From contig NZ_JAUPED010000001.1 of NCBI RefSeq assembly GCF_030552475.1, forward strand, positions 496,001 to 560,000: a stretch of 64,000 bases of DNA. Reading direction: 5' to 3'. This document shows positions 27,376-41,864 of the stretch, piece by piece. The notes below the pieces were generated by a model. It was not told the origin of the DNA. It did not search any database and worked only from the letters and a program-made list of their open reading frames with translations. A program made the translations under genes and the position numbers. How positions within the stretch are numbered: the first letter of the stretch is position 1; every line of letters starts with the position of its first letter. The DNA is from Mariniflexile sp. AS56. GTDB lineage: Bacteria; Bacteroidota; Bacteroidia; Flavobacteriales; Flavobacteriaceae.

Positions 27376-28344
27376 ATGACAGACTCCCAAGAAGCTATAG
27401 AAGTACGCCACGATTTGCAAACCCTTGCGTTTTACAATCTTGAAAATTTATTTGATTTATTAGATGATAAACGTACGAATGACAATGATTTCCTGCCTAC
27501 TTCGGTAAAAAAATGGACACCAAAACGCTACGATAATAAACTCAGGAAATTAAGTTTCGCTATCTCTAGCATAGGAAAGAAAGAAACAGGAAAACACCCC
27601 GCTATTGTTGGGCTAGCCGAAGTTGAGAGCGCTAAAGTAATTCAAGATTTAATAGCTTATAAGCATTTAGAAACTTGCAATTACGCTTATGTACACTACG
27701 ATTCATTAGATGAACGCGGTATTGATGTTGCTTTAATTTATGACACTACTGCATTTGAAGTATCACATTCTGAAGTTTTTAGAATTCATTTAACCAATGA
27801 ACAGGGCATGCCTGATTACACCAGAGACATCCTATTGGTTTCCGGCTTTTTAGATGGTGAAGCGGTTCACGTTATTGTAAACCATTGGTCGTCTAGACGC
27901 GAGGGCGAAAAAGAAACGGAACCAAAACGCATGGCTTCATCACATAAAGTCGCTGAAATTATCAGCAATTTACGCTTAGAAAATCCAGAAGCAAAAATTA
28001 TTGTTATGGGAGATTTTAACGACGACCCTTCCAGTAATAGTATTAAAAATTTGGTTCAAACAGCAAACCTTTACAACCCCATGGATACCTTGCGTTCGTT
28101 TAGTCGAGGCACTACCATGCACAACCGCCAGTGGAATTTATTCGACCAGATTATTTTTTCTACTAACTTTTTTGAAAGCACACCCAATAAGTTAGAATTT
28201 GACAGTGCTAATATTTTTGATGAAGATTTTTTAAAACTCTTTAACGGAAAATTTAAAGGCACACCATACAGAACTTACATTGGCAAAAAATACCAAGGCG
28301 GTTATAGTGACCACTTTCCGGTGTATGCTATTTTTAAAAGGTGA
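27376..28344 (+). CDS. Endonuclease/exonuclease/phosphatase (EEP) family protein, no signal peptide
   Basis: A 322-residue metal-dependent phosphoesterase. LAFYNLENLFD (about 17-27) holds the Asn/Glu metal site, GLAEVESAKV a second Glu, and YDSLDERGIDVALIYD is a family motif. VNHWSSRREGEKETEPKR contributes active-site His, MGDFNDDPSSNS the Asp/Asn pair, and GYSDHFPVYAIF the C-terminal catalytic His. The N-terminus lacks a signal peptide, unlike its paralogue at 34124-35179, with which it shares most of these motifs. Substrate could be DNA, RNA or a phosphoester. It is divergent from hflX. Confidence 0.87.
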   Translation: MTDSQEAIEVRHDLQTLAFYNLENLFDLLDDKRTNDNDFLPTSVKKWTPKRYDNKLRKLSFAISSIGKKETGKHPAIVGLAEVESAKVIQDLIAYKHLETCNYAYVHYDSLDERGIDVALIYDTTAFEVSHSEVFRIHLTNEQGMPDYTRDILLVSGFLDGEAVHVIVNHWSSRREGEKETEPKRMASSHKVAEIISNLRLENPEAKIIVMGDFNDDPSSNSIKNLVQTANLYNPMDTLRSFSRGTTMHNRQWNLFDQIIFSTNFFESTPNKLEFDSANIFDEDFLKLFNGKFKGTPYRTYIGKKYQGGYSDHFPVYAIFKR

Positions 28345-28464: not shown

Positions 28465-28842
28465 CTATGCTGCTTGAAAAAGAATAAGCGCCAATACAAT
28501 CACTCCAACAGGTAACAACAAAAGCAACCAAATATTATGTTGAGGACTTGCCTTTTTGGTCATTCTAGCCTTTATCATCATACGTCTTTTACCTGTGTAT
28601 TGCATCCAATTTTTAAAAAACACAAACAAGGAAACCAAAACAAAAAGCGTCCAAGCCTTTTCTTTGCTCATGGTACTCATATTCATCTGGTTAAAAAACT
28701 TCGCAAAGAAAATACCCAAAAACAATAATAAAGCACATTGCAATATCGAAATATAAGCAATAGCAATACTATTCGATTTTTGTTTGTATTTGGGTTTAAA
28801 AAAAGTAAAAATGCTATAGAAAAGGGAATCGAAGGTGCTCAT
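28465..28842 (-). CDS. Small integral membrane protein of unknown function
   Basis: A 125-residue protein with three likely membrane segments: about 27-48 (AIAYISILQCALLLFLGIFF), 62-79 (WTLFVLVSLFVFFKNW) and 103-123 (IWLLLLLPVGVIVLALILF). A basic cytoplasmic loop (GKRRMMIKARMTKK) separates the last two. No signal peptide or recognised domain is present. It starts 22 bases after the DUF2971 gene on the same strand and could be co-expressed with it. Confidence 0.65.
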   Translation of the reverse strand: MSTFDSLFYSIFTFFKPKYKQKSNSIAIAYISILQCALLLFLGIFFAKFFNQMNMSTMSKEKAWTLFVLVSLFVFFKNWMQYTGKRRMMIKARMTKKASPQHNIWLLLLLPVGVIVLALILFQAA

Positions 28843-28864: not shown

Positions 28865-29629
28865 TTATTTAGGACACGTAATTATTTTAGTGAAAGTTAA
28901 TTTTCCAAAGGTAGTAGGTTTTTCTAGTTTATAAATTCCAACATTAGCATAATTGTTTTTAACATCGTAAAATACTTTTTTTACATATTGATAATCAGCA
29001 CTGTATCCCAAAATTACATTTCTTAATGCGTTTTTGTTAAATTTAGATTTGCGTTTAAAATTTTTGAGTAAACGAACTTCCTTTTCATATCCCCAGTTTT
29101 TATCCTTTCGGAAAAAAACTTTTCCTATTTCTTTTTCACTTGTAATTGGCATAAATTCCATTTGACTTAACTCTTCTTGATATTGAACGGGACCTAAAAT
29201 GGTGAAAAAATCTTTATCAATATCACTATTGAATTGTAAACAAACTCCTTTATGATTATTTGAATAATTTGCCCAAAGTGGCATATTCATAATATACATT
29301 GAAAAACAAGCAATTCCAAATTCCAAAATTAAGTCTAAAACCTTGCTTTGAGCATATTTTTGAAGAGATTCAGTAGTGTATTCCGACTTAAAGTATTCTT
29401 TTACTTTTTTATCAGTTATGCTCTCAGAAATTAAGTCATAAAATTTTGCTATTTCTTCTGAATTTTCAGTTAATCTAACCAGTTCTGGGCTTGAATCAAA
29501 TGGGTCATTCAATGAATTTCGATCTGCAAAAAAAATATAATTATTAACTATTTCGTCTATTGTTCGGTCAGAATCTGGTCGAAACCTAAATACGTATGGT
29601 CGTCCAGCCTTTTTAATTTCATCATCCAT
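28865..29629 (-). CDS. DUF2971 domain-containing protein
   Basis: A 254-residue soluble protein. The N-terminal YVFRFRPDSDRTIDEIV and FADRNSLNDPFDSS, then the central LWANYSNNHKGVCLQF, are the defining motifs of DUF2971, which has no known biochemical activity. A later charged region (FFRKDKNWGYEKEVRLLK) is also typical. A GTG at 29641 would add four residues; ATG 29629 is preferred. A -7-like box TAAATTTG lies at 29661-29668. DUF2971 genes are patchily distributed and sometimes found in accessory regions, so lateral transfer is possible. Confidence 0.8.
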   Translation of the reverse strand: MDDEIKKAGRPYVFRFRPDSDRTIDEIVNNYIFFADRNSLNDPFDSSPELVRLTENSEEIAKFYDLISESITDKKVKEYFKSEYTTESLQKYAQSKVLDLILEFGIACFSMYIMNMPLWANYSNNHKGVCLQFNSDIDKDFFTILGPVQYQEELSQMEFMPITSEKEIGKVFFRKDKNWGYEKEVRLLKNFKRKSKFNKNALRNVILGYSADYQYVKKVFYDVKNNYANVGIYKLEKPTTFGKLTFTKIITCPK

Positions 29630-29660
29630 TTTGTATAACACCTAACCTATTATATATAGA

Positions 29661-29719: not shown

Positions 29720-31156
29720 CTACAGCATATAATCAACACTTACCTCATCCAACTCATAAACACCATCAAAAGCCTCTTGCCCGCTTCCGGTGTATTTAAA
29801 CGCAATATGGAGGTTTCCGGAAGCACAAGTTAAATCGACGTTTCCAGAATTAAACCAAGGCACGAAAGAATCGGAATCTTTCACTACATAAGCAGCAGAC
29901 AATACGCCCCAAGTAGCCAATTTAATATTCGCTGCTGTCCCATCCCAATCTAAAGAATACAAAACCTCTAAAAAACTACTATCGGCTAAACTATTTGAGG
30001 TTTTAAACCGAAGTGTCGCCCCCATTTTACCCGTTAAATTAATAGCGGGTGTAATTAACCAAGCGATATTACTAGCATCACCAGAACTAGCACTCTGAAG
30101 TCTCGCTGAACGCCCTAAAGATGCGTTTGTGGATGTAGAAGAATACGCTTCCCACGCTTTCGTTCCTGCTTCTATATAATTGGTCCAACCTTTGCCTGTA
30201 ATGGGTTTGTTGTTTGTTTGTGTTTCAAAATTGTCATAGAATAAATTACTCGTTCCGTGAGTAGCAGCAAGTCCGCAATTCAATTCCATTGGGTCGCAGC
30301 GTTCTGGTGTATTAAAATTAATATCGGTGGTACTGTTAATCATAATTACATTAAAATCATCTCCATAATCTCTCCCAAAAACACCTTGTATGGTTCCTTT
30401 TCCTTGCGGAACAATTAGCGATTTAAAATCGGCAAACGTGCTAGTTTGCATCAACATCGACACTCCCGAATCACAACTTTCTATGATACGAAATCCATCA
30501 AATTCATCGGTGCTTTCACCTGCATAAGTGGATGCTAAATCAAACCGATTCACTTGTACATTATTTAACTGAATAAGTGTGTTTTCATCTCTACTTGTTA
30601 AATCCTGTATCCTAACAGCTTTAGGTGTTAGTGTCGCAACTTCCGTACCTCTTAAAATGATTTTACGATATTCTGATGCTTGAATTTGTTTCAGCTTATT
30701 CGAATCACCCGTACCAATAGCGATCACGCCGTTAGATAATCCAATGGTTAATCCGTTTAGTTTTACATATACTTTCCTGCCAACTTCAAAGGTATTATAT
30801 AAACTACTGGTGTTTATTTCAATCTTTAGTCCTAAACGTGGGTCATTTTCAGGATCGCTTGCATCTATTTTATTCTGAATAATTAATTCTTCAAAAAAAT
30901 TGCCGCCTTTATCAGTCGAAATAACATAACCTTGAATATACAAATCCTGTTCATCTCTAATTAAAACAGTGGTATTTCCACCGTTAACAGCTTGCTCATA
31001 ACGCTCAACTATCGCTTTGAAAGTAGTAAGACTACTCGCTGGAATATGAGGTTCTTTAATAAGCGTATCTGGAATTGAGAAGTCATCATCTTGCACACAT
31101 GCAGGCATACTAATGGCAACAAAAACACATATTAGAAATTTAAATATATTATTCAT
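29720..31156 (-). CDS. DUF5689-type surface lipoprotein paired with a TonB receptor
   Basis: A 478-residue lipoprotein: MNNIFKFLICVFVAISMPAC gives a lipobox Cys20. About residues 38-285 match DUF5689, with LYIQGYVISTDKGGNFFEEL, GLKIEINTSSLYNTFEVG and KVYVKLNGLTIGL, a pattern I read as OB-fold-like strands. The C-terminal ~175 residues (FYDNFETQTNNKPITGKGWT ... ELDEVSVDYML) look like a jelly-roll, choice-of-anchor-type domain. It follows the TonB receptor gene by 12 bases, the place SusD-type partners occupy, although it shows no SusD features. I infer a surface binding role, perhaps for nucleic acid. Confidence 0.82.
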   Translation of the reverse strand: MNNIFKFLICVFVAISMPACVQDDDFSIPDTLIKEPHIPASSLTTFKAIVERYEQAVNGGNTTVLIRDEQDLYIQGYVISTDKGGNFFEELIIQNKIDASDPENDPRLGLKIEINTSSLYNTFEVGRKVYVKLNGLTIGLSNGVIAIGTGDSNKLKQIQASEYRKIILRGTEVATLTPKAVRIQDLTSRDENTLIQLNNVQVNRFDLASTYAGESTDEFDGFRIIESCDSGVSMLMQTSTFADFKSLIVPQGKGTIQGVFGRDYGDDFNVIMINSTTDINFNTPERCDPMELNCGLAATHGTSNLFYDNFETQTNNKPITGKGWTNYIEAGTKAWEAYSSTSTNASLGRSARLQSASSGDASNIAWLITPAINLTGKMGATLRFKTSNSLADSSFLEVLYSLDWDGTAANIKLATWGVLSAAYVVKDSDSFVPWFNSGNVDLTCASGNLHIAFKYTGSGQEAFDGVYELDEVSVDYML

Positions 31157-31168
31157 AATCCCTTTATT

Positions 31169-33988
31169 TTAAAATCTATAATTCATATTTACAAAATAAG
31201 TCGTACCCCGACCATACCAATACTTTGAACCAAATACGGGTTTTGCCAATGCTATATCATCCCTTATTTCTCTAAAATTCGCGTTTCGAGATTGCTCAAA
31301 TCCGCCTGTTTTATGAACAGCATCTAAAAGGTTATTCACACTCGCAAACAACCCAACATACTTACTTTTAATGCGCCACGACTTCCCTCCTGTTAGGTTT
31401 ACAAGCATATAACCATCAAACCGCTCTTGTTTTAATAATGCTTTGGCCTGAGTTTCATCATAATCATTAAAAGGTTGCCCATCTACATCTGTATTAAAAT
31501 TTGAACTTCTGGTTAATGGTGTTATATCAATATAAGTATTGCTGAAAAAATTTGCCGTTGCACCAAACCACCAATAATCGGGATCTTGGTATTCAAAACC
31601 AACAGAATAGGCGGATTGCGGACCCGCAGCCAGTTTGTAGTTTTTTAAATGAGCTTTTCCCAAATACACATTGGTAAAATCTTCTGAAGAGACATATAGA
31701 TTCGGGTTATTATTATAGGTAAACTGTCCCACTGCTAAGGCCCCTTTCAGTTTCATGGTTGGTGTTACTTGGGCTTCAATTCCTAATTCGGCACCAAGAT
31801 GTTTCTTTTCAATACCTTGAAGCACTTCTTGCACAAAATTAGCTTCTTCACCTGTCCCCGTTTCGGTAAAAGCATTAATGGCACCAATACCATCTGCAAA
31901 GAAAAATGAGATTTCGTTCGCATCTTCTATTTGAGTGTAATAGCCCGTAAGTTTGGCTTTCATTATAGACGACCTAAAAATATAACTAGCATCGACACTG
32001 TTTATTTTTTCTTCGGAAATATGAGGGACCACATTATGGTTTTCTCTTGAATTGGAATACGTGTTTTGAATGGATGGCGCTTTAGAAACGTACCCCAAAT
32101 TAATATCTAGCAGATGCCTTCCTGTAATTTTATAGGTCGTCCCACCCTTCAAACCGAAACCTAGAAAGTTCAATTCATCACCTTTCCCGAATGATTGCTC
32201 ACCAGGAAATGAGCCATTTTCATAAACACCATTTCTTTGATACTTGGTACGCGTTACATTTCCGGCCACATAAAAATCCACCTTATTGTATTTAAATTGT
32301 GACTGCGCAAAAACTCCAAACACCTCTGCATGGATATTGTAATTGTATTTAAACCTGTCGTCCACACCAACAATTCTATTCGGGTTAAGTAAATTGTTTT
32401 GAATCGCGTCAGGGTTATTTACAAAATCGTTGGCATACCCATCTACGTCCAAATAACTATTCGCTCCTAATAAATCGAGTACCTTGGCATAGTTTTTAGA
32501 CTTTAGTGTTTTATAATTCACCGCGGCATTAAAACTAACATGCTCGTTAATTTGAGAATTTAATATAGAATTAAAGGTGACTTGTTTGTCGTCTACACGA
32601 TCTTCATATAAAGCATAAACGGCGTGACCTCCTTGTGCCGAATTACTGATGTTTGCACTGTATAAATCGTGCCAATTAATTTGACCGTTATTTAAAAATT
32701 CTTGTTGTGCGGTGTAAGCAAATCCTAAATCATTAGGAAAATTACGCTCAAAATAACTTGGTAATTTTTGATAATAAGACGCACTCGGGTTAGACCCTCC
32801 GCCTTCGGGATAGCCATTTACCAAATCGGTGCCATTATAATCTAAACGGCTATTCCCTTGTTTCCCGAATTGATAAGCCATCGTAGTAGTTATGGCTGTT
32901 TTTTTATTAACAGTCCAATAATGACTCCATATCAAAATAGGTTCATCAACCTCTTTCATTCTAGAATTTCGTTTTTCACCATCTTGCCAACCCCAATATT
33001 CATTGTATTTAATCCCTTTTAAATCGTAAACTTCTTGCGTATTTGGTGATGATTTTCCACGTCTATTAGGCGTATAAATTCCCGTGAAATTGAGACTATG
33101 TTTATCATTAATTTTCCTTTCTACGGAAGTAAAAAAGGAATTAGAATCGTATAACGTCGCATCTTGATAGCCTTCATCACCCCAACGTCTGCCTATAGAA
33201 AAGGCAAATGCCCAATCGTTTTCTAGCAAACCCGAAGCGTAAGTAGCCATCAATCGATTTGCGTAACTTCTGTTAGACGCGGAATAGGTAACCCGACTAC
33301 CACTGCGATATTCTGAAGCCCTCGTATTGATATTAGTGGAACCATAAACACCTCCAAAATTATAATTAGAGGGCGTTAAACCTGTGGATAGTTCTTGATT
33401 ACGCAACACATCATTTAGGCCTCCCCAATTGCTCCACTGTGGTCGCCCATTATAAAGTTTGTTCATTTCTATACCGTTCAATAAAACGGTACTGTTTTCA
33501 GAATCTAAACCTCTCACTCTAAAAAATGCAGCGCTAAACTCGAAGGCGGCCGTACGCTGAAACACATCCAAAGACGCTGCTAGTAATCCCGAAATATTAT
33601 CAGACCCGCTGTTATCATCATTCAATTCATCATCGGAAAGGGTAATGGTAAACAAATCTTGAGTACTTGTAACATCAAGATCCAAGGTCATGTCTGTAAT
33701 ATTAACCGTTCTATTAAGGTTAACCACGACGGGAAATCGCTTCGTTTGATAGCCTATTTTATAAATTTTTATGATTTGTTCTCCCAAAGGGATGTGAGCA
33801 GAAAATATAAAAGCACCATTTGCGTCAGTTTGAGTTAATTGGTCTGTGCCTTCAATACTAATTGAAACATCGGGAATAGCATCAAAAGATAACGCATCTT
33901 TCACACTCCCTTTAATAATGGTTTGTTGTGCGAAAACTATAAAAATTGAAAATAAACTGAACAAAAAAGCAAACCATCTTTTTTTCAT
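31169..33988 (-). CDS. TonB-dependent outer-membrane receptor (paired with DUF5689 lipoprotein)
   Basis: A 939-residue receptor. Signal peptide about 1-20; a carboxypeptidase-regulatory-like N-terminal domain (IIKGSVKDALSFDAIPDVSI, to about 100); a plug with FFRVRGLDSENSTVLLNGIE and WSNWGGLNDVLRNQEL; then a 22-strand-type barrel ending YFVNMNYRF. It should import a substrate across the outer membrane using TonB energy. It precedes the DUF5689 gene by 12 bases and is divergent from an exported EEP-family nuclease. The WSNW motif in the plug is shared with the second receptor at 39321-41864. Substrate is inferred from neighbours only. Confidence 0.93.
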   Translation of the reverse strand: MKKRWFAFLFSLFSIFIVFAQQTIIKGSVKDALSFDAIPDVSISIEGTDQLTQTDANGAFIFSAHIPLGEQIIKIYKIGYQTKRFPVVVNLNRTVNITDMTLDLDVTSTQDLFTITLSDDELNDDNSGSDNISGLLAASLDVFQRTAAFEFSAAFFRVRGLDSENSTVLLNGIEMNKLYNGRPQWSNWGGLNDVLRNQELSTGLTPSNYNFGGVYGSTNINTRASEYRSGSRVTYSASNRSYANRLMATYASGLLENDWAFAFSIGRRWGDEGYQDATLYDSNSFFTSVERKINDKHSLNFTGIYTPNRRGKSSPNTQEVYDLKGIKYNEYWGWQDGEKRNSRMKEVDEPILIWSHYWTVNKKTAITTTMAYQFGKQGNSRLDYNGTDLVNGYPEGGGSNPSASYYQKLPSYFERNFPNDLGFAYTAQQEFLNNGQINWHDLYSANISNSAQGGHAVYALYEDRVDDKQVTFNSILNSQINEHVSFNAAVNYKTLKSKNYAKVLDLLGANSYLDVDGYANDFVNNPDAIQNNLLNPNRIVGVDDRFKYNYNIHAEVFGVFAQSQFKYNKVDFYVAGNVTRTKYQRNGVYENGSFPGEQSFGKGDELNFLGFGLKGGTTYKITGRHLLDINLGYVSKAPSIQNTYSNSRENHNVVPHISEEKINSVDASYIFRSSIMKAKLTGYYTQIEDANEISFFFADGIGAINAFTETGTGEEANFVQEVLQGIEKKHLGAELGIEAQVTPTMKLKGALAVGQFTYNNNPNLYVSSEDFTNVYLGKAHLKNYKLAAGPQSAYSVGFEYQDPDYWWFGATANFFSNTYIDITPLTRSSNFNTDVDGQPFNDYDETQAKALLKQERFDGYMLVNLTGGKSWRIKSKYVGLFASVNNLLDAVHKTGGFEQSRNANFREIRDDIALAKPVFGSKYWYGRGTTYFVNMNYRF

Positions 33989-34123
33989 CCTTCAATTAAA
34001 TATTATAAATTAAATGTGGTTAAAAACCCCTTTGTTTCATAAACATAAACTTACATTATTTTTTGATTACTATTTAAAATTGATTTAAATTTTACATCAA
34101 AAAAATAAAGCCCTTTTTTACTC

Positions 34124-35179
34124 ATGAAAAAAGTTAGATTCTATTTATTAGCTTTCATATTAGTTCTATTTACTAAAGCCAACTCGCAAGACAAAAAGCT
34201 TTACAAAATACACACACTCGCTTTCTATAATTTAGAAAACTTGTTCGACACCATGGACGACCCGACAAAGTTTGACGAATCTAGCCCCATCATGTCCATA
34301 AACACAAACCGAGACATCGTTTATAAAAAAAAGGTTAAAAATATGGCACTGGTTTTAGCCAATATTGGGAAAGAAGTCAGCAATAATTCGCCTGCCATCA
34401 TTGGTGTTTGTGAAGTTGAAAACAGAGACGTACTTGAAGACCTTGTTAATGATAGCTTATTACAAAGTATAGATTATGGTATAATTCATTATGATTCACC
34501 AGATCTTCGAGGTATTGATGTCGCTCTATTATACCAGAAAAAACTATTCACGCCTATTTCTACGAGCAGTCATGAATTAAAAATTTATGATGACCAAACA
34601 GGCAAACGAGTTTATACCAGAGATCAACTGCTGGTGAGTGGCTATTTAGAAGAAGAGCTTATTCACGTTATTGTAAACCATTGGCCCTCTAGAAGCGGTG
34701 GTGAGGCTAAAAGCAAACCTAAGCGCATAGCTGCGGCAAAATTAACCAAACATGTGGTAGACTCTTTAATTATAATTGACCCCTATGCAAAGGTTTTTAT
34801 TATGGGCGATTTGAATGATGACCCAACAAGTGAAAGTGTAAAAGCCATTTTGAATCCAGAAAAAGATAAAGACAAAGTTCTATTTAAAGGCCTTTACAAC
34901 CCTTTTGAAGCTTTTTATAAGAAAGGCCTGGGCACAACAGCCTATAGAGATGCTTGGAGCTTATTTGACCAAATAATAGTAACCAAACCGTTGCTTGAAA
35001 AAGATTATAGTTCGTTTCAATTGTACAAAGCAGGCATTTACAATAAAAACTATTTAATTGAGAAAGCGGGCACCTATAAAGGCTACCCAAAGCGTAGTTT
35101 TTCACAAAGTGGTTTTAATGATGGCTTTAGCGACCACTTTCCTGTTTACGTTTACCTTATAAAGGAAGTGAAACCTTAA
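34124..35179 (+). CDS. Exported endonuclease/exonuclease/phosphatase family enzyme
   Basis: A 351-residue exported phosphoesterase. MKKVRFYLLAFILVLFTKAN, then SQ, is a signal peptide. Catalytic motifs of the EEP fold are all visible: LAFYNLENLFDTMDD, GVCEVENRDVL, YDSPDLRGIDVALLY, IVNHWPSRSGGEAKSKPKR, MGDLNDDPTSES, LFDQIIV and GFSDHFPVYVYL. The HWPSRSGG form resembles extracellular nucleases. It is divergent from the TonB/DUF5689 operon across about 135 bases, which suggests joint regulation. Likely a secreted nuclease, though a phosphatase or sphingomyelinase-like activity is not excluded. Confidence 0.88.
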   Translation: MKKVRFYLLAFILVLFTKANSQDKKLYKIHTLAFYNLENLFDTMDDPTKFDESSPIMSINTNRDIVYKKKVKNMALVLANIGKEVSNNSPAIIGVCEVENRDVLEDLVNDSLLQSIDYGIIHYDSPDLRGIDVALLYQKKLFTPISTSSHELKIYDDQTGKRVYTRDQLLVSGYLEEELIHVIVNHWPSRSGGEAKSKPKRIAAAKLTKHVVDSLIIIDPYAKVFIMGDLNDDPTSESVKAILNPEKDKDKVLFKGLYNPFEAFYKKGLGTTAYRDAWSLFDQIIVTKPLLEKDYSSFQLYKAGIYNKNYLIEKAGTYKGYPKRSFSQSGFNDGFSDHFPVYVYLIKEVKP

Positions 35180-35194
35180 AAACACTTTCTGTTA

Positions 35195-35232
35195 AAACAA
35201 AACAAGCGACTTAAAAGTCGCTTGTTTTGTTT
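35195..35232. terminator. Bidirectional terminator, 18-bp perfect stem
   Basis: Arms AAACAAAACAAGCGACTT (35195-35212) and AAGTCGCTTGTTTTGTTT (35215-35232) with a 2-base loop. It serves the convergent nuclease and membrane-protein genes and abuts the stop codon of the latter at 35233. Confidence 0.85.
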
Positions 35233-35670
35233 CTAGGCTAACCACGTACTCCAAGGAATTCTTGATAATAACAATACCAAACCTAAAGAATAGAAAATAG
35301 CGATTGGTTTTAACTTTGCTTGCGACGTTAGTTTCTTTTTATGTTTTGAATAACCTATTGTAATTAATGCAATTGCAATAATATTTACAAATGGATGCTC
35401 TACTAAATACAAACGTGCTATTGAGTTTTTCATAACTTCACCTCCCATTTCTGCCCACAAATCGAATCGGGGTGAAACAAAATATAATATGATACCAATA
35501 AGTAATTGAATATGCGATACGATTAAAGTAAATAAAGCGATTCTAAAATCTTTAGGTTCATATTCTTTATCTCCAAATACTTTTAATAAGGCATTTACAA
35601 CCGCAATAATTAAAACTATAAACACTAGATATGCCCAATAAGAATGGAGCTTTAAAACAACATCGTACAT
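35233..35670 (-). CDS. Four-helix membrane protein (cytochrome-b-like family of Bacteroidota)
   Basis: A 145-residue inner-membrane protein with four hydrophobic segments (about 10-31, 43-64, 90-107 and 121-137). Membrane-embedded or edge histidines occur in LKLHSYWAYLVF, LIVSHIQLLIG and LVEHPFVNII, a pattern that could bind heme. I recall close relatives in many Flavobacteriaceae labelled cytochrome B or hypothetical. It sits inside the nuclease/TonB region but reads as an ordinary housekeeping membrane protein. No partner gene is evident. Confidence 0.75.
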   Translation of the reverse strand: MYDVVLKLHSYWAYLVFIVLIIAVVNALLKVFGDKEYEPKDFRIALFTLIVSHIQLLIGIILYFVSPRFDLWAEMGGEVMKNSIARLYLVEHPFVNIIAIALITIGYSKHKKKLTSQAKLKPIAIFYSLGLVLLLSRIPWSTWLA

Positions 35671-35721
35671 GAATTAAATAATTTAAAATTTATAAAAACA
35701 AATGTAATAATTAAAACATAA

Positions 35722-35749
35722 AAAAACCGCTTCCTGAGAAGCGGTTTTT
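35722..35749 (-). terminator. Terminator of the endonuclease I lipoprotein gene
   Basis: Perfect 12-bp arms AAAAACCGCTTC / GAAGCGGTTTTT with a CTGA loop, downstream of the stop codon at 35776. Confidence 0.85.
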
Positions 35750-35775
35750 AAAACTTAAAATAGTGACTTATATTA

Positions 35776-37416
35776 TTATTCCCATTTATTTTCAGCATCC
35801 GTACCACCCCAAATTAGGGTCGCTAAATATGCATTATCAATAAATGGATTTCTATTGCCTTGAGCTGCGTAAATCACATTATTTCGTTGTACTTCGAAGT
35901 CAGATACAGGGTCTTCAATGTTCCATTGTAAAAACATTTCTAATGTGCCTACTTTGGTAATTACTTCTCCATAGCGTATGTTTAAATATAAAACCATTCT
36001 TGCTACATCTCCTTTCCATTCGTCTCCAGGATACCATCTGTTTCCTCCAATTAATTGATTCGCTCCACTACCTGTTGTAAAACTATAATTACTACGTTGG
36101 CCATTTACTCCTGAATCACAAGACCTTAAATGATGTAAATCCGTTACAGCATCGGTTGTACTTAATAGAGACTGCGGAAATATATGCTCAGTGTTAAAAG
36201 TTTGTGGAGAATATGAATTTGAACCTGATGTGTATTCTTTCCAATATCTACTTTCACTTGTGTACATTAAAATCACATTATCGGTATTAGTCAAATCGGC
36301 ATCTGCATTGTATAAATATTCATGTCTTTGACCGTATGACAATATACTTGTATGTTTTGAAACAGTTATGCTTTCTAACTCTTCAAACATTAAATCTGTA
36401 TTTTCAGAAAATATAACACCATTATAATAGTCCCTTATTTCTGTTGGTATATTAAAATTTATTGAATTTAAAACAGTAATTGTTACTGTTGCTGTTGCAC
36501 AAGAATTATTAGGCGTATCATTATCACAAATGGTATATGTGAAAGTATCTTGGCCAATAAAATCGGTTTGCGGCTCATACGTAACAGTGCCATCTAAATT
36601 TAAAACTACTGTTCCTATGGAGCTAGAACTATTAATAAATTTTAAAACAGCACCGTCAATAATATCATCATTTTCTAATAAACTAGTAATTACTTTAGCT
36701 GTGTTTTCTAAAACATTAATGGCATCATCAACCGCAACTGGGTTACCTTCGTCTGTTACTGTTATTGTTACTGTTGCTGTTGCACAGGTTTTATTTGGCT
36801 TATCATTATCACAAATAGTATATGTAAAAGTATCTTCACCATTAAAATTTAGCTGAGGAGTATAAGTAATCGTCCCGTTTGAATTTAAAATGACTTTTCC
36901 TAAAGTGGCAGAAACATCGATAGATTCAATTAAAGCACCGTCTATAGTATCATCATTTTCTAATAAAGTATTAATGACTATAGTCGTATTTTCAATTACA
37001 CTAATGGCATCATCTACAGCAACTGGATCGCCTTCGTCAGTTACAGTTATTGTTACTGTTGCTGTAGAGCAATTTGGCGGTGTTTCTCTATCACATATCG
37101 TGTATGTAAACGTATCTTCACCTAAAAACCCACTTGCTGGAGAATATGTATAAGTTCCATCTCTATTATCAACTATTTTTCCTTGATTCGTGGTAACTGA
37201 ATCAAAACCAGTAATTTTCGCGTTATTTACAATAGTATCGTTTGATAATAAATTTTGAATAATCAAATCTGTATCTTCTACTGCTGTAACATTATCATCT
37301 ACCGCAATAGAAACACCTTTGGGTGTTGGGTCTGGCTTTGGCGAATCTTCTTCACCTGAACTACTGCAATTAAAGAACAGTAAAACAACTAGAAATAATA
37401 AACTAAATTTTTTCAT
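35776..37416 (-). CDS. Surface lipoprotein endonuclease I (EndA/NucM-like) with three cadherin/VCBS-like repeats
   Basis: A 546-residue lipoprotein nuclease. MKKFSLLFLVVLLFFNC gives lipobox Cys17. Three tandem ~90-residue Ig/cadherin-like modules (about 38-313) each contain a VAVDD or IAVDD start, DGT or NGT ... Y turns, EDTFTYTICD and ATVTITV. They form a stalk. The C-terminal domain (about 330-546) is of the endonuclease I type with a beta-beta-alpha-metal signature NTEHIFPQSLL, LHHLRSCDSGVNGQRSN and GDVARMVLYLNIRYG. It should cut DNA or RNA outside the cell. It is flanked on both sides by its own and a neighbour's terminators, so it is likely a single-gene unit. Confidence 0.9.
   Translation of the reverse strand: MKKFSLLFLVVLLFFNCSSSGEEDSPKPDPTPKGVSIAVDDNVTAVEDTDLIIQNLLSNDTIVNNAKITGFDSVTTNQGKIVDNRDGTYTYSPASGFLGEDTFTYTICDRETPPNCSTATVTITVTDEGDPVAVDDAISVIENTTIVINTLLENDDTIDGALIESIDVSATLGKVILNSNGTITYTPQLNFNGEDTFTYTICDNDKPNKTCATATVTITVTDEGNPVAVDDAINVLENTAKVITSLLENDDIIDGAVLKFINSSSSIGTVVLNLDGTVTYEPQTDFIGQDTFTYTICDNDTPNNSCATATVTITVLNSINFNIPTEIRDYYNGVIFSENTDLMFEELESITVSKHTSILSYGQRHEYLYNADADLTNTDNVILMYTSESRYWKEYTSGSNSYSPQTFNTEHIFPQSLLSTTDAVTDLHHLRSCDSGVNGQRSNYSFTTGSGANQLIGGNRWYPGDEWKGDVARMVLYLNIRYGEVITKVGTLEMFLQWNIEDPVSDFEVQRNNVIYAAQGNRNPFIDNAYLATLIWGGTDAENKWE
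36477..37305 (-). repeat. Three tandem ~90-codon repeats within the endonuclease lipoprotein gene
   Basis: The encoded modules repeat EDTFTYTICD (QDTFTYTICD in the third) and ATVTITV. At DNA level the near-identical tract GTTACTGTTATTGTTACTGT or its variant recurs once per module. Modules 2 and 3 are the most alike. Confidence 0.8.
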
Positions 37417-37450
37417 AACATTAATAAATGAATTAAACTTTGAAGAGAAA

Positions 37451-37478
37451 AAAAACCACCTTAAAAGAGGTGGTTTTT
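37451..37478 (-). terminator. Terminator of the TonB receptor 2 / lipoprotein operon
   Basis: Perfect 11-bp arms AAAAACCACCT / AGGTGGTTTTT with a 6-base loop, between the lipoprotein stop (37501) and the endonuclease start (37416). Confidence 0.85.
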
Positions 37479-37500
37479 ATACTATTTTAGTAATAAATTC

Positions 37501-39309
37501 TTATTGTACAACCCAAACACCTCCGGTTTTAACGAAGCCTGTTTGATAATCACTTTCACCATTATCAAAAATAACGTATGTTAAAATATACTTTTGTCCT
37601 TCTTCCGCATTTGGATCTAAATGATCTAAGAATATTGCTAAAGCAAAATTAATTTGTGCTTCAGTCCAGTTATAATCAAAATCACCATATTGTGCTAAGT
37701 TTCCAATTAATCCAGAATATTCTGCACTAGTTAATTGAGAAGCTATATACACATAATCTCCATTTCTTACTAAAGTATACTTAATGGTATTATCTGGAAC
37801 CCAAGTTGTACCATCGTGTCCAAACTTTAAAGAAGTATTAATAGTTGATTCATAAGCTACCCAAACACCATCTTTTTTAGTATATAAATTACCTCGCGTC
37901 TGCGCACCACTAGAGCTAGACACATAATTATACAATACATTCAATTCTTTACCCTCTTGAGCGTAAGGGAATTTTAGATTCAAGAAAGTAGGCAAATAGC
38001 TATTTGGTTGAGTAGAACTTCCAAAAGCTTCAATACCTATTGAAGCAAAATCTGTATCACTTACTGAGTAAAACTGATCTGCAACCGGTACTACCCATGC
38101 ATCACCTGTAAAAGTATAGATTGCTTTATGAGAAACTTTAGCTCCCACTACCTCATCTTCTAATACGTCATTAGTCATTAGAGACGACCAAGTATTTGCT
38201 ACACGTATACCGTCGATTACTCCAGTTGGACCACCATTTCCTTGGCGAATTCCGATTCTTTGTGCAGAATTTCCAGCATTTCCAGTACTTGTCGCTTCTG
38301 CGGTACCTGGTTCCGTCGCTTCAGCTGCTGACAATACATATAAATTAGATGTACCTGTAGCTATATCATAAGATGTAACAACAAGATATGTAGTATTTAA
38401 ATTAAAAGGAGTTGTCCCGTAAGTTAAAGAACTTGAACTTGCACCAATACCAAATAAAATATTACCGGCCCCATCACTTTTAGCACCAACTCTTGCTGAA
38501 TAATTAAAACTGCCATCCTCTTCCATAAGGTGGAAAAAATAAGTTCCATCACCAACTTCACTTAAATTCATTAAGGCACTAGAATATACAGTTCCTGTTG
38601 TAATTATTGTTGTCAATGAACTATTTACATCCTCAGAATCAGCACTAGATAAAGCCATAGCGCCTCCCATATTAGAAGAAGGATAATCTGCCATAGACAA
38701 ATTATTAGTTACATATTGCAATTGGTTAGGAGCTCCAGAATGATTTGCCCACTTATTAGTTGAAATAGTCGTTAAATCTCCTGTAGTAGTTCCATAATCA
38801 AAATTCTCATCAAAAGAAACAGCAGGAGTCACAGTAAAAGCACTTCCCGTATATTGGAAATATGATGCAGCCACATAATCTCCTTCTTTAGGAGTACTAT
38901 ATTTAGCAATAAGAATATCTGCTAAATAATCTGCTGGAGTTACATCAGATTGAAAACCTAATAAATTACTTCCACTTAGGGTATAATCTGCCTGTGTTAA
39001 ACCATAATCTTTTAGTCCAAAAGCATTCCCTATATACAATTTATAATTAACTGAAACTGTTGATTTATTTCCCCAAGTAGGATACATTTCAGTTAATAAA
39101 GACGGAATATCAGATTTGGCATCATCTTCAGAATTGAGACTGCCATAATTTGGATTAAGTTCTTCATAATCATCATCAGTTAGAGTGTATTCAGCATCTC
39201 CAACAATTGGTTTAGCCTGCGCATCAATTTCTGCATTGATATCTTCTAATGGATCACAAGAAGTGAATACCATTGAAAAAACGGTTAATAATAAAAATAT
39301 ATTTTTCAT
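37501..39309 (-). CDS. Large surface lipoprotein paired with TonB receptor 2
   Basis: A 602-residue lipoprotein: MKNIFLLLTVFSMVFTSC gives lipobox Cys18. An acidic N-terminal region (about 38-85) precedes VNYKLYIGNAF and YFQYTGSAFTV. A central ~200-residue segment (LTTISTNKWANHSGAPNQLQ to RVANTWSSLM) resembles a concanavalin-like jelly-roll domain. The C-terminal ~200 residues show repeated aromatic-Asn/Asp patterns and end GVWVVQ. No SusD motif is present and no family is recognised. It follows the TonB receptor by 11 bases, the same layout as the other receptor/lipoprotein pair, so it is probably that receptor's surface partner. Confidence 0.8.
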   Translation of the reverse strand: MKNIFLLLTVFSMVFTSCDPLEDINAEIDAQAKPIVGDAEYTLTDDDYEELNPNYGSLNSEDDAKSDIPSLLTEMYPTWGNKSTVSVNYKLYIGNAFGLKDYGLTQADYTLSGSNLLGFQSDVTPADYLADILIAKYSTPKEGDYVAASYFQYTGSAFTVTPAVSFDENFDYGTTTGDLTTISTNKWANHSGAPNQLQYVTNNLSMADYPSSNMGGAMALSSADSEDVNSSLTTIITTGTVYSSALMNLSEVGDGTYFFHLMEEDGSFNYSARVGAKSDGAGNILFGIGASSSSLTYGTTPFNLNTTYLVVTSYDIATGTSNLYVLSAAEATEPGTAEATSTGNAGNSAQRIGIRQGNGGPTGVIDGIRVANTWSSLMTNDVLEDEVVGAKVSHKAIYTFTGDAWVVPVADQFYSVSDTDFASIGIEAFGSSTQPNSYLPTFLNLKFPYAQEGKELNVLYNYVSSSSGAQTRGNLYTKKDGVWVAYESTINTSLKFGHDGTTWVPDNTIKYTLVRNGDYVYIASQLTSAEYSGLIGNLAQYGDFDYNWTEAQINFALAIFLDHLDPNAEEGQKYILTYVIFDNGESDYQTGFVKTGGVWVVQ

Positions 39310-39320
39310 GATTTCTTTTT

Positions 39321-41864
39321 TTAAAAATTAAGTTTGGCTCCAATACTAAATGTTCTACCTGTACCAAAGTACACTAATGCTGTACTTGAAGTACCATCAA
39401 AAGCATCCGTTACATATTCCGTATCAAACACGTTGTTTATACGTGCTACTAGATTTGCCTCAAATGGTCCAAAATCGAAACCATGACTAATAACAGCATC
39501 AAATAATCCATAATCAGGTAATTTCCATGCATCAGGCGAGTTTGGGTCATCTCTATCACTAGGGTCAAAATCAGCATAAAGGTTTCCAAAATAATTATAG
39601 TCAATAATTAACTTCGTTTTTGGAGTCAATTTATAATTTACACCAAGAGCTAAAGTAGTTTGAGCCGCATCACCTACGTGTAAATCTTCAATATAAAGAT
39701 CTACAGTTTCTATTAAGTTTTGATCTTCATCAAGAATTTGAACATCTGTTACATTGTTGCCCCATCTCCAATCTCCTAAGGAAACCATTCCAGTTAAATT
39801 TAATTTATCAGTAGCTTTATAGATAAAATCTAATTCAACGCCTTGGTGAATCGCACTTACACCTAAAATATTTGCAAATGCATTTGTACCATCTGGTTGT
39901 TGGAATGATGCAGTTTCGGTTCTATCTTTCCAAGTTGTTCTGTATACATTTACATTGGCTGTAAGTTTATCACTTCTGTATCCATAACCTAATTCGAAAC
40001 TTAGAATTTTTTGATTTGCAGCATCTTCATTGATATGTTCATTATCAAATTCTTGAAAAACCGCATCAAAATCAGCTGCTTTTTCAAAGTACCCAATATT
40101 AGCGAATACATTGTGGTTAGAATCAAGTCTATAATTCGCCCCCCCTTTTGTACTAAATCCTAAGAAATTATAATTATCGGTTTCTTGTAATGGATCGCTA
40201 TCTAAATAATTAAAGTAATCAACTCTTTTATAAGAAGTATTAGATAATGCTAAAGATACGAATGTGTTGAAGTTTGTATCTACATCATACTCTAACTGTC
40301 CAAAAGCACCTAACCATCCTACTAAACCATCGTTATAATAACTTCTTTTATCTCCTACTTTAGCAGCTGCATTTGGGTTATTAACGTCACTATCATCTAA
40401 GAAATACTGACCACCTAACAAATCTGTAACCTCCTGGAAGTGAATTCCTTTATAGTTTCTATAATCGATACCTGTTAAAAGCACTAAATCATCAGATAAA
40501 TTTGTTTTTAAAGTAGATAAAACACCATACCAATTATGGTCATTTCGAGAAGCTCTTAAAATCGTTTCAGATCCATTTGCGCCTCTAGCACTATTTTCTT
40601 CTACAATTTTATCAAAATCGATAGTACCATAAAGCCCTTTTCTATATTCACTGAAACCAGTATTACTGAAACCAAATTTATTAACACCAGCAATTCCACC
40701 ACCACCACCACTACCGAATGATGCATAAGCTACAGTTGCTATTGATGTATTATCATTTAAAGACCAATAATGGTTTAAAGACATTTGAGGTTTGTTATAG
40801 AAGTTATCTTCTTGATGTGTTACCTGTCCATCTTTATATCCCCAATCTGCATTAAATTTTCTACCACTTTCACTAGCTTTGAAAGTAGAAATTGTTTGTC
40901 TATTTTGTCTTTGTCCATGTCGTTGTTTTGAACCGAATGCTGTAAAGGAAATTTTATGTTCATCATTAATCTCTTTTGATAAATTAACAAAATACGAAAC
41001 CCCTTCAAATTCCGTTCCGTCTACATAACCATCTCCTTCAGTTTTAGCAGCAGAAACAGTTGCAGCAAATCCTTTATCATTTAGACCTGTAGAATAAGTA
41101 AGTCCATATTTCTCATAACCATCATTCGCTATAGAAGTAAATACACTTCCTCCAGCTTCAACATCGGTTGTTTTTGTAATAATATTAATAGTACCACCTA
41201 TAGAAGGCACTGCTACTTTAGAAGCTCCTAAACCTCTTTGCACTTGCATTGTTGAAGTCACATCACCTAAACCAGCCCAGTTAGACCAATATACAGCTCC
41301 GTTTTCCATATCATTAACAGGAATACCATTAATCATAACAGCAACGTTGTTGGATTGAAAACCTCTAATTCTAGTTTTCGCATCTCCATAACCACCACCT
41401 GTTTTAGTTGTATAAATACCTGGAGTAGATTTTAATATTTCAGGAAACTCTTGAGTTCCCAGTTTAAGTTCTATATCCTCTGATTTGATTGTAGAAACAG
41501 CAACAGGTGTTTTTCTATCTACAGCAACAGATGCTATAATTTGAATTTCACCTAAGCCTACTTGACTAGACTCTAATTCAATAGTTCCAACCGCTTTATC
41601 ACCACTAAAAGTGATTGTTTTGGAATTATAACCAATGAAGGTTATTACAATTTCTCCAGATTTAGACTGAGTTTTTAAAGAAAATTTACCATCAAAATCG
41701 GTAGTAACCCCATTTGTAGTTCCTTTTTCAATAACGTTTGCCCCAGGAAGTGGCACATTACTACCTGATTCTTTCACAACTCCAGAAATAGTACTTTGAG
41801 CCATTAAAACTGTAGAAAACAATAATACTACAGCGTACATTAAAAAATGCGTAGTTTTTTTCAT
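39321..41864 (-). CDS. TonB-dependent outer-membrane receptor 2
   Basis: An 847-residue receptor. Signal peptide about 1-22 (to VLMAQ); CarboxypepD_reg-like domain (ISGVVKESGSNVPLPGANVI, to about 105); plug with RKTPVAVSTIKSEDIELKLG, KTRIRGFQSNNVAVMINGIP and VYWSNWAGLGDV; barrel ending GRTFSIGAKLNF. The NGIPVNDMENG/WSNWAGL block matches NGIEMNKLYNG/WSNWGGL of receptor 1, so the two belong to the same subfamily. It heads a two-gene operon with the 37501 lipoprotein. A -7 box lies about 27 bases upstream of the ATG. Confidence 0.94.
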   Translation of the reverse strand: MKKTTHFLMYAVVLLFSTVLMAQSTISGVVKESGSNVPLPGANVIEKGTTNGVTTDFDGKFSLKTQSKSGEIVITFIGYNSKTITFSGDKAVGTIELESSQVGLGEIQIIASVAVDRKTPVAVSTIKSEDIELKLGTQEFPEILKSTPGIYTTKTGGGYGDAKTRIRGFQSNNVAVMINGIPVNDMENGAVYWSNWAGLGDVTSTMQVQRGLGASKVAVPSIGGTINIITKTTDVEAGGSVFTSIANDGYEKYGLTYSTGLNDKGFAATVSAAKTEGDGYVDGTEFEGVSYFVNLSKEINDEHKISFTAFGSKQRHGQRQNRQTISTFKASESGRKFNADWGYKDGQVTHQEDNFYNKPQMSLNHYWSLNDNTSIATVAYASFGSGGGGGIAGVNKFGFSNTGFSEYRKGLYGTIDFDKIVEENSARGANGSETILRASRNDHNWYGVLSTLKTNLSDDLVLLTGIDYRNYKGIHFQEVTDLLGGQYFLDDSDVNNPNAAAKVGDKRSYYNDGLVGWLGAFGQLEYDVDTNFNTFVSLALSNTSYKRVDYFNYLDSDPLQETDNYNFLGFSTKGGANYRLDSNHNVFANIGYFEKAADFDAVFQEFDNEHINEDAANQKILSFELGYGYRSDKLTANVNVYRTTWKDRTETASFQQPDGTNAFANILGVSAIHQGVELDFIYKATDKLNLTGMVSLGDWRWGNNVTDVQILDEDQNLIETVDLYIEDLHVGDAAQTTLALGVNYKLTPKTKLIIDYNYFGNLYADFDPSDRDDPNSPDAWKLPDYGLFDAVISHGFDFGPFEANLVARINNVFDTEYVTDAFDGTSSTALVYFGTGRTFSIGAKLNF

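Follow-up and report, generated by a model that had tools for sequence, protein, structure and literature searches.

Receptor 1 and lipoprotein 1, a TonB-receptor-like protein and a DUF5689 lipoprotein encoded side by side in Mariniflexile sp. AS56, probably constitute the outer-membrane stage of natural transformation, with a divergently encoded nuclease of the EEP family probably cutting the DNA. Their genes lie in the window, a stretch of 64,000 nucleotides (contig NZ_JAUPED010000001.1, positions 496,001 to 560,000), where the original prediction had seen a surface system that degrades and imports nucleic acid as a nutrient. DNA is most likely the substrate of one of the two receptors, receptor 1, but the nutritional part of the claim is unlikely: the best reading is DNA import for transformation rather than nutrient scavenging, since the Riemerella anatipestifer counterparts of the pair, RA0C_RS04915 and RA0C_RS04920, are needed for transformation, which fits genetic uptake. 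Receptor orthology, a conserved gene triad and co-loss with competence genes are the contributions of this analysis, while essentiality comes from R. anatipestifer only and is not proof of a channel.

Two units in one locus

Open reading frame checks and Pfam and NCBIfam profiles recovered all the genes expected in 29720..41864, at their coordinates and with the domains described; signal peptides and lipoboxes were assigned by eye, with no predictor. The locus consists of two units. Unit 1 comprises lipoprotein 1 (29720..31156, minus strand; 478 aa), receptor 1 (31169..33988, minus strand; 939 aa) and, beyond the intergenic region at 33989..34123, the divergent EEP-family nuclease (34124..35179, plus strand; 351 aa). 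Lipoprotein 1 carries the anticipated DUF5689 domain (PF18942, E 4e-57) and a choice-of-anchor J module (NF038128), and its lipobox ends, by eye, at C20, with a mature start of CVQDDDF. Receptor 1 has a CarbopepD_reg_2 domain (E 3e-10), and the nuclease matches Exo_endo_phos_3 (PF19580, E 1e-109) behind an apparent signal peptide. The gene of a small membrane protein adjoins that of the nuclease (35233..35670, minus strand) and was matched in 74 of 109 loci. An EEP paralogue outside the triad (27376..28344, plus strand; PF19580, E 1e-101) appears by eye to have no signal peptide.

Unit 2 (35776-41864), entirely on the minus strand, encodes a lipoprotein endonuclease I (35776..37416; 546 aa) with three Big_9 modules and an Endonuclease_1 domain (PF04231, E 7e-36), lipoprotein 2 (37501..39309; 602 aa), and its partner receptor 2 (39321..41864; 847 aa), in which Plug and TonB barrel matches lie above their cut-offs. 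The Plug match of receptor 1, at 20.4 bits, falls short of its 23.9-bit threshold, and the Pfam barrel profiles do not match this receptor, which was counted against the transformation reading.

Both units resemble SusCD loci in having a TonB-linked receptor gene followed by a lipoprotein gene, and in the N-terminal carboxypeptidase-regulatory domain. They differ in the absence of SusD and of glycan enzymes: as had been foreseen, domain profiles found neither a glycoside hydrolase nor a SusD domain in the ten proteins scanned, and against the TIGR04056 cut-off of 368 bits receptor 2 scores 90 while receptor 1 gives no match. The 12- and 11-base spacings between receptor and lipoprotein genes (31156/31169 and 39309/39321) are real, but as a sign of one common class they mean little, because the gap behind receptor 1 spans -92 to 1346 bases among 96 relatives. 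The shared plug motif likewise exists (WSNWGGL in the 939-aa receptor, WSNWAGL in the 847-aa one), but WSNW[GA]GL was rejected as a class marker because it falls within a conserved stretch, and R. anatipestifer has YGNWGGL. Nor is the receptor/lipoprotein class new, having already been reported in 2021 (PMC8459023, available part).

Neighbours were counted within 9 kb of receptor 1 in 109 loci, the window included. A lipoprotein homologue lies behind the receptor in 106/108 evaluable loci of the family set, and the EEP nuclease before it in 96/105, as well as in 14 of 16 evaluable loci from other families of the class. The triad is kept in several families, in one of which the nuclease gene has the same direction as the receptor gene and lies 9 bases before it. 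The predicted conservation of gene order therefore applies to the receptor, the DUF5689 lipoprotein and the EEP gene, but not to endonuclease I, found in 7/109 loci; with lipoprotein 2 in 16/109, the proposal that the two operons form one system fails. Among the first 111 loci, 16 contain a comF-like gene no more than ~10 kb from the pair, a count of loci rather than of separate origins that serves as support only, and a further case comes from a locus in another family; dprA lies within ~10 kb in two loci, as does comEC in R. anatipestifer. The flavobacterial promoter consensus, TTG-17/23-TAnnTTTG, was sought in the 140 bases before the receptor, nuclease and lipoprotein genes; it was present in 0 of 96 upstream regions of each, with about one in shuffled sequences.

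Unit 2 is a separate TonB-receptor unit that is only sometimes a neighbour of unit 1. Of the 16 loci with lipoprotein 2, 7 also have endonuclease I, once on the opposite strand, and the relatives of lipoprotein 2, some of which have a choice-of-anchor J module, gave no DUF5689 match in the 16 scanned. The presence of receptor 2 relatives is uncoupled from the loss of DUF5689. A single nutrient system was rejected, as unit 2 and endonuclease I are unstable neighbours and receptor-2-like genes persist where the triad and comEC are lost (genomes G004 and G030).

Riemerella counterparts and co-loss with competence genes

In R. anatipestifer, markerless mutants of RA0C_RS04915 and RA0C_RS04920 transform below detection, each gene being essential, according to the accessible text of PMC8459023. 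The genes compared here are those of strain CCUG25054, whose record has no RA0C tags, and they were equated with RS04915/RS04920 by domains, adjacency and distance from comEC. The strain has the identical layout of nuclease, receptor and lipoprotein, with the EEP gene divergent and the DUF5689 gene directly behind the receptor, the order also found in unit 1; comEC lies ~4 kb away there, whereas in Mariniflexile it is on another contig, and function has been tested only in R. anatipestifer. Receptor 1 is the reciprocal best match of the R. anatipestifer receptor (36% identity, E 6e-158; 528 bits vs 94 for receptor 2), and a quick tree, supported by SH-aLRT only, places these two on one side of a 100% branch and 24 different receptor-2-like rows on the other, the side of receptor 2. 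Lipoprotein 1 scores 196 bits against NF052645, the family of M949_1556, below the cut-off of 475 (R. anatipestifer, 591), and is by this measure a homologue rather than a formal member. Judged by sequence and gene order, receptor 1 together with lipoprotein 1 represents the flavobacterial version of the RS04915/RS04920 pair.

Counting genes from comEC, the R. anatipestifer EEP gene would be RS04910. Should that count hold, the nuclease entered the measurements of the 2021 study solely as an unaffected upstream neighbour (PMC8459023, in part). Transformation is likewise reduced in R. anatipestifer mutants of tonBA and tonBB, and the tonBA mutant shows no iron defect (PMC8383284, available portion). 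Homologues are present in Flavobacterium johnsoniae, yet it was found not to be transformable, as far as the available text of PMC8459023 reports.

The loss of DUF5689 tends to go with that of competence genes. Among 100 near-complete genomes, seven lack DUF5689 and four lack ComEC, all four being among the seven (p 9e-6), and the three without DprA all lack DUF5689 as well (p 2e-4), whereas for the control, a receptor-2-like gene defined by a match at E 1e-75 or better, 31 genomes lack it and three of these are among the seven (p 0.37); these p values ignore the kinship of the genomes. A looser count at E 1e-40 (p 0.20) was dropped, as some of its matches fall on receptor 1 itself. Genome reduction may account for part of the co-loss, many losses being in small genomes. 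In G030 (3.6 Mb, 100% complete) the site otherwise matches but the triad is missing, as are comF, comEC and the ComEA-like gene; this genome has only a partial DprA match, retains a receptor-2-like gene, and its sole EEP gene is of the paralogue type represented by 27376..28344. G004 keeps an EEP gene and a receptor-2-like gene, the rest of the triad and comEC being gone.

Exceptions occur in both directions. DUF5689 is absent but ComEC found in four of 120 genomes (G032, G046, G092 and G112), among which G032 retains full comEC, dprA, comF and the ComEA-like gene, and G046 and G092 keep comF and dprA with shorter ComEC frames. Conversely, four of the 120, all 82-87% complete and two of them without DprA, have DUF5689 and no ComEC. 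A strict bond between the EEP gene and competence is not claimed, as G004 and G032 break it. The genome from which the window was taken encodes ComEC, DprA and a ComEA-like protein along with a comF-like gene, the ComF label resting on likeness, with only phosphoribosyltransferase matches below cut-off in Pfam. We know of no natural transformation in Mariniflexile sp. AS56, a point counted against the transformation reading.

A candidate nuclease for transformation

The protein at 34124-35179 belongs to the EEP superfamily by its fold family and by the invariance of N36, E97, H186, D229, N231, D337 and H338, which we take to be catalytic, across 17 rows, one of them the window paralogue and the other 16 proteins of this type. 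The metal motif of the nuclease domain is absent from the ComEC frames examined. The strand-degrading activity that is missing could therefore come from the EEP enzyme, which, on this basis and by its linkage to the receptor, may be an unrecognised, apparently exported part of the DNA-uptake machine. In Streptococcus pneumoniae, the strand-degrading nuclease of transformation is EndA. Elsewhere this role is assigned to the beta-lactamase-like domain of ComEC (PMC12455585, available part). The candidate activity proposed for the EEP enzyme is the same breakage of one strand, but it has a different fold and is encoded with an outer-membrane receptor. DUF5689, EEP and LTD are parts shared with ExeM/NucH nucleases and secreted LTD-DUF5689-EEP fusions; LTD occurs in some lipoprotein 1 relatives, and in two proteins (L184 and L185) all three domains are fused ahead of a T9SS tail, whereas here the parts are two separate proteins tied to a receptor. 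No NF033681 match was obtained for the apparently exported EEP protein, and its profile found nothing in the PDB at E 0.001.

Lipoprotein 1 is acidic, the pI of 96 relatives ranging from 4.05 (the lowest value that the programme gives) to 5.29, and thus no simple electrostatic DNA binder. Its single-sequence AlphaFold model reached a mean pLDDT of 33.7 and a pTM of 0.23, too low to be used for judging the suggested OB fold of DUF5689, and no homologues for modelling were confirmed in viral_contigs. Against the PDB, the C-terminal part of the lipoprotein profile weakly matches gingipain chains (best E 0.036), alongside one chance-level match, and the receptor profile matches through its N-terminal domain (best E 3e-4), with a stretch of OprC at E 0.57.

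Proposed route of DNA and rival explanations

Extracellular DNA would be captured at the surface by lipoprotein 1, presumably through direct binding, and handed to the TonB-driven receptor 1, the proposed outer-membrane channel, which would pass it to the periplasm. From there it would proceed through the ComEA-like helix-hairpin-helix protein, ComEC, ComF, DprA and the RecA recombinase. The EEP nuclease, whose gene diverges from that of the receptor, if exported as predicted, would probably cut the incoming DNA or remove one strand.

That surface nucleases instead break down DNA or RNA, the receptors importing fragments for phosphorus, nitrogen or nucleosides, is unlikely. Nuclease genes are close by, the EEP gene strongly linked to receptor 1 and endonuclease I found with lipoprotein 2 in 7/16 loci, and G004 keeps its EEP gene without competence genes; however, just 7/109 loci of receptor 1 include endonuclease I, DUF5689 is lost along with comEC and dprA, transformation in R. 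anatipestifer depends on the counterparts of the pair (PMC8459023, in part), and a limited search of the literature for flavobacteria with TonB receptors that use DNA as a source of phosphorus returned nothing on point. Loss of DUF5689 together with cytoplasmic and inner-membrane competence genes, and a nuclease as the conserved neighbour, also make it distinctly improbable that the pair serves to maintain the cell surface, its loss affecting transformation only in an indirect way. A 2015 study reportedly, by its title, ascribes to M949_1556 a role in antigenicity and pathogenicity. An envelope role would agree with the naming of the NCBI family matched by the R. anatipestifer lipoprotein (591 bits) after M949_1556, which is listed as LPS-associated (PMC4976936, part seen). 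That the system is an ordinary TonB importer for a small ligand such as a cofactor, siderophore or peptide, with the nuclease a chance neighbour, is very improbable: receptor 2, like the N-terminal part of receptor 1, does resemble ordinary TonB receptors, and R. anatipestifer transformation depends on iron and TonB for further reasons as well (PMC8383284, available portion), but co-loss with competence genes and a triad kept across several families of the class, once codirectionally, speak against this reading.

Transformation thus remains the preferred reading. In other Gram-negative bacteria, DNA enters by a type IV pilus and secretin. A more tentative proposal, somewhat doubtful at present, is that Bacteroidia possess in place of this route an old, vertically inherited machine of TonB-driven receptor, DUF5689 lipoprotein and exported EEP nuclease, the last supplying the strand degradation that ComEC seems to lack. 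The receptor/lipoprotein pair, whose transformation phenotype has been published, is now linked to a conserved nuclease gene, giving a defined three-gene module with a wide distribution and natural losses, which bears on how DNA crosses the outer membrane of Bacteroidota.

Two receptor units in the window

Unit 1 comprises lipoprotein 1 (29720–31156), which carries DUF5689, receptor 1 (31169–33988) and a divergent gene for an EEP nuclease (34124–35179), and unit 2 an endonuclease I lipoprotein (35776–37416), lipoprotein 2 (37501–39309) and receptor 2 (39321–41864). All of the genes named in the original prediction were found at these positions, and domain scans confirmed its domain assignments; signal peptides and lipoboxes, including the signal-like start of the EEP nuclease, were read by eye. 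Two genes (28465–28842 and 28865–29641), one with DUF2971, lie between lipoprotein 1 and an EEP paralogue without a signal peptide (27376–28344).

The two operons had been read as one system for nutrient uptake from nucleic acids. Of 109 loci (window included), 42 have a receptor-2-like gene, 16 lipoprotein 2 and seven endonuclease I no more than 9 kb from receptor 1; most loci extend ~8.5 kb upstream, so that more distant neighbours are missed. Where lipoprotein 2 occurs (16 loci), endonuclease I accompanies it in seven, on the opposite strand in one (L055). DUF5689 was found in none of the 16 lipoprotein-2 relatives scanned, some of which share a choice-of-anchor J module. Unit 2 is separate from unit 1. 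Nor do the 12- and 11-base receptor/lipoprotein spacings mark kinship, as the gap behind receptor 1 ranges from −92 to 1346 bases among 96 relatives, the largest values stemming from receptors broken into two frames.

Receptor 1 and the Riemerella transformation pair

Natural transformation in Riemerella anatipestifer has been examined by transposon screen, and markerless mutants of RA0C_RS04915 (carboxypeptidase-regulatory domain, predicted outer-membrane location) and of RA0C_RS04920 (DUF5689 and choice-of-anchor J) each transformed below the detection limit (PMC8459023). The two genes are predicted to form one operon; their homologues lie side by side in most Flavobacteriaceae examined there, and RS04915 homologues were found solely in that family. 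The authors proposed that DNA is bound by RS04920, then taken across the outer membrane by RS04915, and left open which protein converts double-stranded to single-stranded DNA (PMC8459023). Mutants of tonBA and tonBB also showed reduced transformation, tonBA without an iron defect, according to a companion paper (PMC8383284).

Strain CCUG25054, located via one comEC primer from that paper, served as the R. anatipestifer comparison. Its receptor shares 36% identity with receptor 1 (E 6e-158, genome search), and the back-search ranked receptor 1 first (528 bits, against 94 for receptor 2). The gene after this receptor encodes a DUF5689 lipoprotein (E 2e-56), and the divergent gene ahead an EEP protein with 45% identity to that of the window. 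On the same contig, comEC is ~4 kb away from this receptor and separated from the EEP gene by two others, so that counting locus tags would make the EEP gene RS04910; the record carries no RA0C tags, and equating the pair with RS04915/RS04920 rests on domains, adjacency and comEC distance. In a receptor tree of 67 rows (66 different; 25 receptor-2-like, 24 different), made by a quick method without bootstrap, a 100% branch divides receptor 1, the R. anatipestifer receptor and other-family receptors from the receptor-2-like rows. The receptor-1 side tracks families, as expected of vertical inheritance; the receptor-2 side forms two main groups, the window's receptor 2 lying in one and the genes of genomes G030 and G032 in the other.

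The proposed DNA substrate is most likely right for receptor 1, orthologous to the receptor of a published transformation pair. The receptor/lipoprotein pair, first read as a distinct class, belongs to a published, if little-known, kind (PMC8459023).

Conservation and co-loss with competence genes

Loci of up to 20 kb were fetched around receptor-1 or DUF5689 matches: 108 family genomes, no two of the same genus, supplied 109 and R. anatipestifer one, and the window itself brings the total to 111. Because loci were picked for having a match, the following counts are conditional on receptor presence. Receptor 1 is matched above 250 bits in 109/111, and the lipoprotein then follows in 106 of 108 with sufficient flank; the exceptions are L148, where DUF5689 is nonetheless encoded, and L146, a second locus of its genome (G086). 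The EEP gene lies ahead of receptor 1 in 96 of 105 loci, is somewhat farther off in two and is not there in seven. Of the two loci set aside, L153 carries all three genes, its receptor being diverged, and L145 the lipoprotein with no receptor adjoining. The predicted gene order was therefore kept in relatives for receptor, DUF5689 lipoprotein and EEP gene, but not for endonuclease I. In a phylum-wide sample, the receptor was found at E 1e-60 in 46/296 genomes, 17 of them outside the family, where the lipoprotein follows in 16 of 17 loci and the EEP gene lies ahead in 14 of 16 evaluable; in the two loci of family f11 it is co-directional with the receptor, 9 bases ahead in L175. Within the literature searched, both this broader distribution and the nuclease partner go beyond PMC8459023.

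Domain number varies: locus L118 (G003:C75:11200-31100) has the receptor–lipoprotein pair in tandem duplicate, each lipoprotein of ~900 aa with three DUF5689 copies, and two or three copies occur in lipoprotein-1 relatives of G043, G002, G047, G073, G074, G076, G114 and G119. In G108, G021 and G339 the receptor-1 gene is in two frames, through decay or sequencing error. In G060, dprA directly adjoins lipoprotein 1 (L087:12883-13989, the same gene as L161:283-1389).

Among 120 genomes, DUF5689 was found in 109, ComEC in 109 and DprA in 112; both DUF5689 and ComEC are missing from seven, DUF5689 alone from four (G032, G046, G092, G112) and ComEC alone from four, these last being 82–87% complete and two of them also without DprA. 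In the 100 near-complete genomes (≥90% complete, ≤5% contaminated), seven lack DUF5689, four ComEC and three DprA, and all ComEC and DprA losers fall within the seven (p 9e-6 and 2e-4, ignoring phylogeny, many losers being small genomes). Receptor-2-like genes, as a control, are missing in 31, three of them among the seven (p 0.37); a looser count (p 0.20) also took in hits to receptor 1 itself.

G030 (3.6 Mb, 100% complete) gives the clearest individual example: its matching site keeps pgi, a receptor-2-like gene and the small membrane protein gene but lacks EEP, receptor 1 and lipoprotein 1. Genome-wide, comF-like, comEC and ComEA-like genes were not found, one helix-hairpin-helix match lying in a 716-aa frame that resembles ~710-aa frames elsewhere and is another gene; DprA is matched only partially. 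The comF label is by likeness, Pfam giving phosphoribosyltransferase matches only, below cut-off. Exceptions argue against a strict bond between triad and competence: G032 has lost receptor and lipoprotein yet keeps comEC, dprA, comF, the ComEA-like gene and an intact EEP gene; G046 and G092, without DUF5689, keep comF and dprA, with shorter ComEC frames; and G004 keeps EEP without comEC, dprA, comF or the ComEA-like gene. In G032, a 72-residue match to the receptor-1 N-terminus (L155:11874-12089) adjoins the EEP gene and is probably a remnant; comEC of G046 is seemingly in two overlapping frames (L158:10100-12152). Orthology to the transformation pair and co-loss with competence genes speak against the nutrient reading, and a role in transformation is likely.

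A candidate nuclease for DNA entry

In transforming bacteria one DNA strand is degraded upon entry. A 2025 study assigns this to the ComEC beta-lactamase-like domain (PMC12455585), and the Bacteroidetes passage of a ComEC survey reports that DUF4131 was gained and that the profile in Porphyromonadaceae is Competence-only, naming no Lactamase_B gain (PMC6299819). A pattern search found HxHxD in none of 12 ComEC frames, two of them partial, and 66 to 162 residues extend beyond the Competence domain in the 11 where it could be placed. Against five solved ComEC chains of 799–837 residues, the best match of the R. anatipestifer protein covers residues 156–430, and none extends to the end of the chain. 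A separate nuclease would therefore be useful.

The EEP nuclease, with its signal-like start, has retained the putative catalytic residues, and its gene is receptor 1's most stable neighbour besides the lipoprotein. Single chains combine LTD, DUF5689, EEP, an SprB repeat and a T9SS sorting tail (L184:1462-6099, 1545 aa; L185:1050-5111, 1353 aa) and LTD is present in some lipoprotein-1 relatives, which suggests, at the level of domain architecture, a shared substrate for DUF5689 and EEP.

The mature start of lipoprotein 1, C-V-Q-D-D-D, resembles an acidic surface-export signal. Lipoprotein 1 would most likely sit on the cell surface and present DNA to receptor 1, passage would be powered by TonB, the EEP nuclease would trim the incoming DNA, and the ComEA-like protein, ComEC, ComF and DprA would take the onward steps. 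Lipoprotein 1 is acidic, with pI values across 96 relatives between 4.05, the lowest that the programme gives, and 5.29, which argues against simple electrostatic DNA binding. The full reading, nuclease included, is tentative and somewhat doubtful. What is new here is the nuclease partner, the wider taxonomic range and the co-loss with competence genes.
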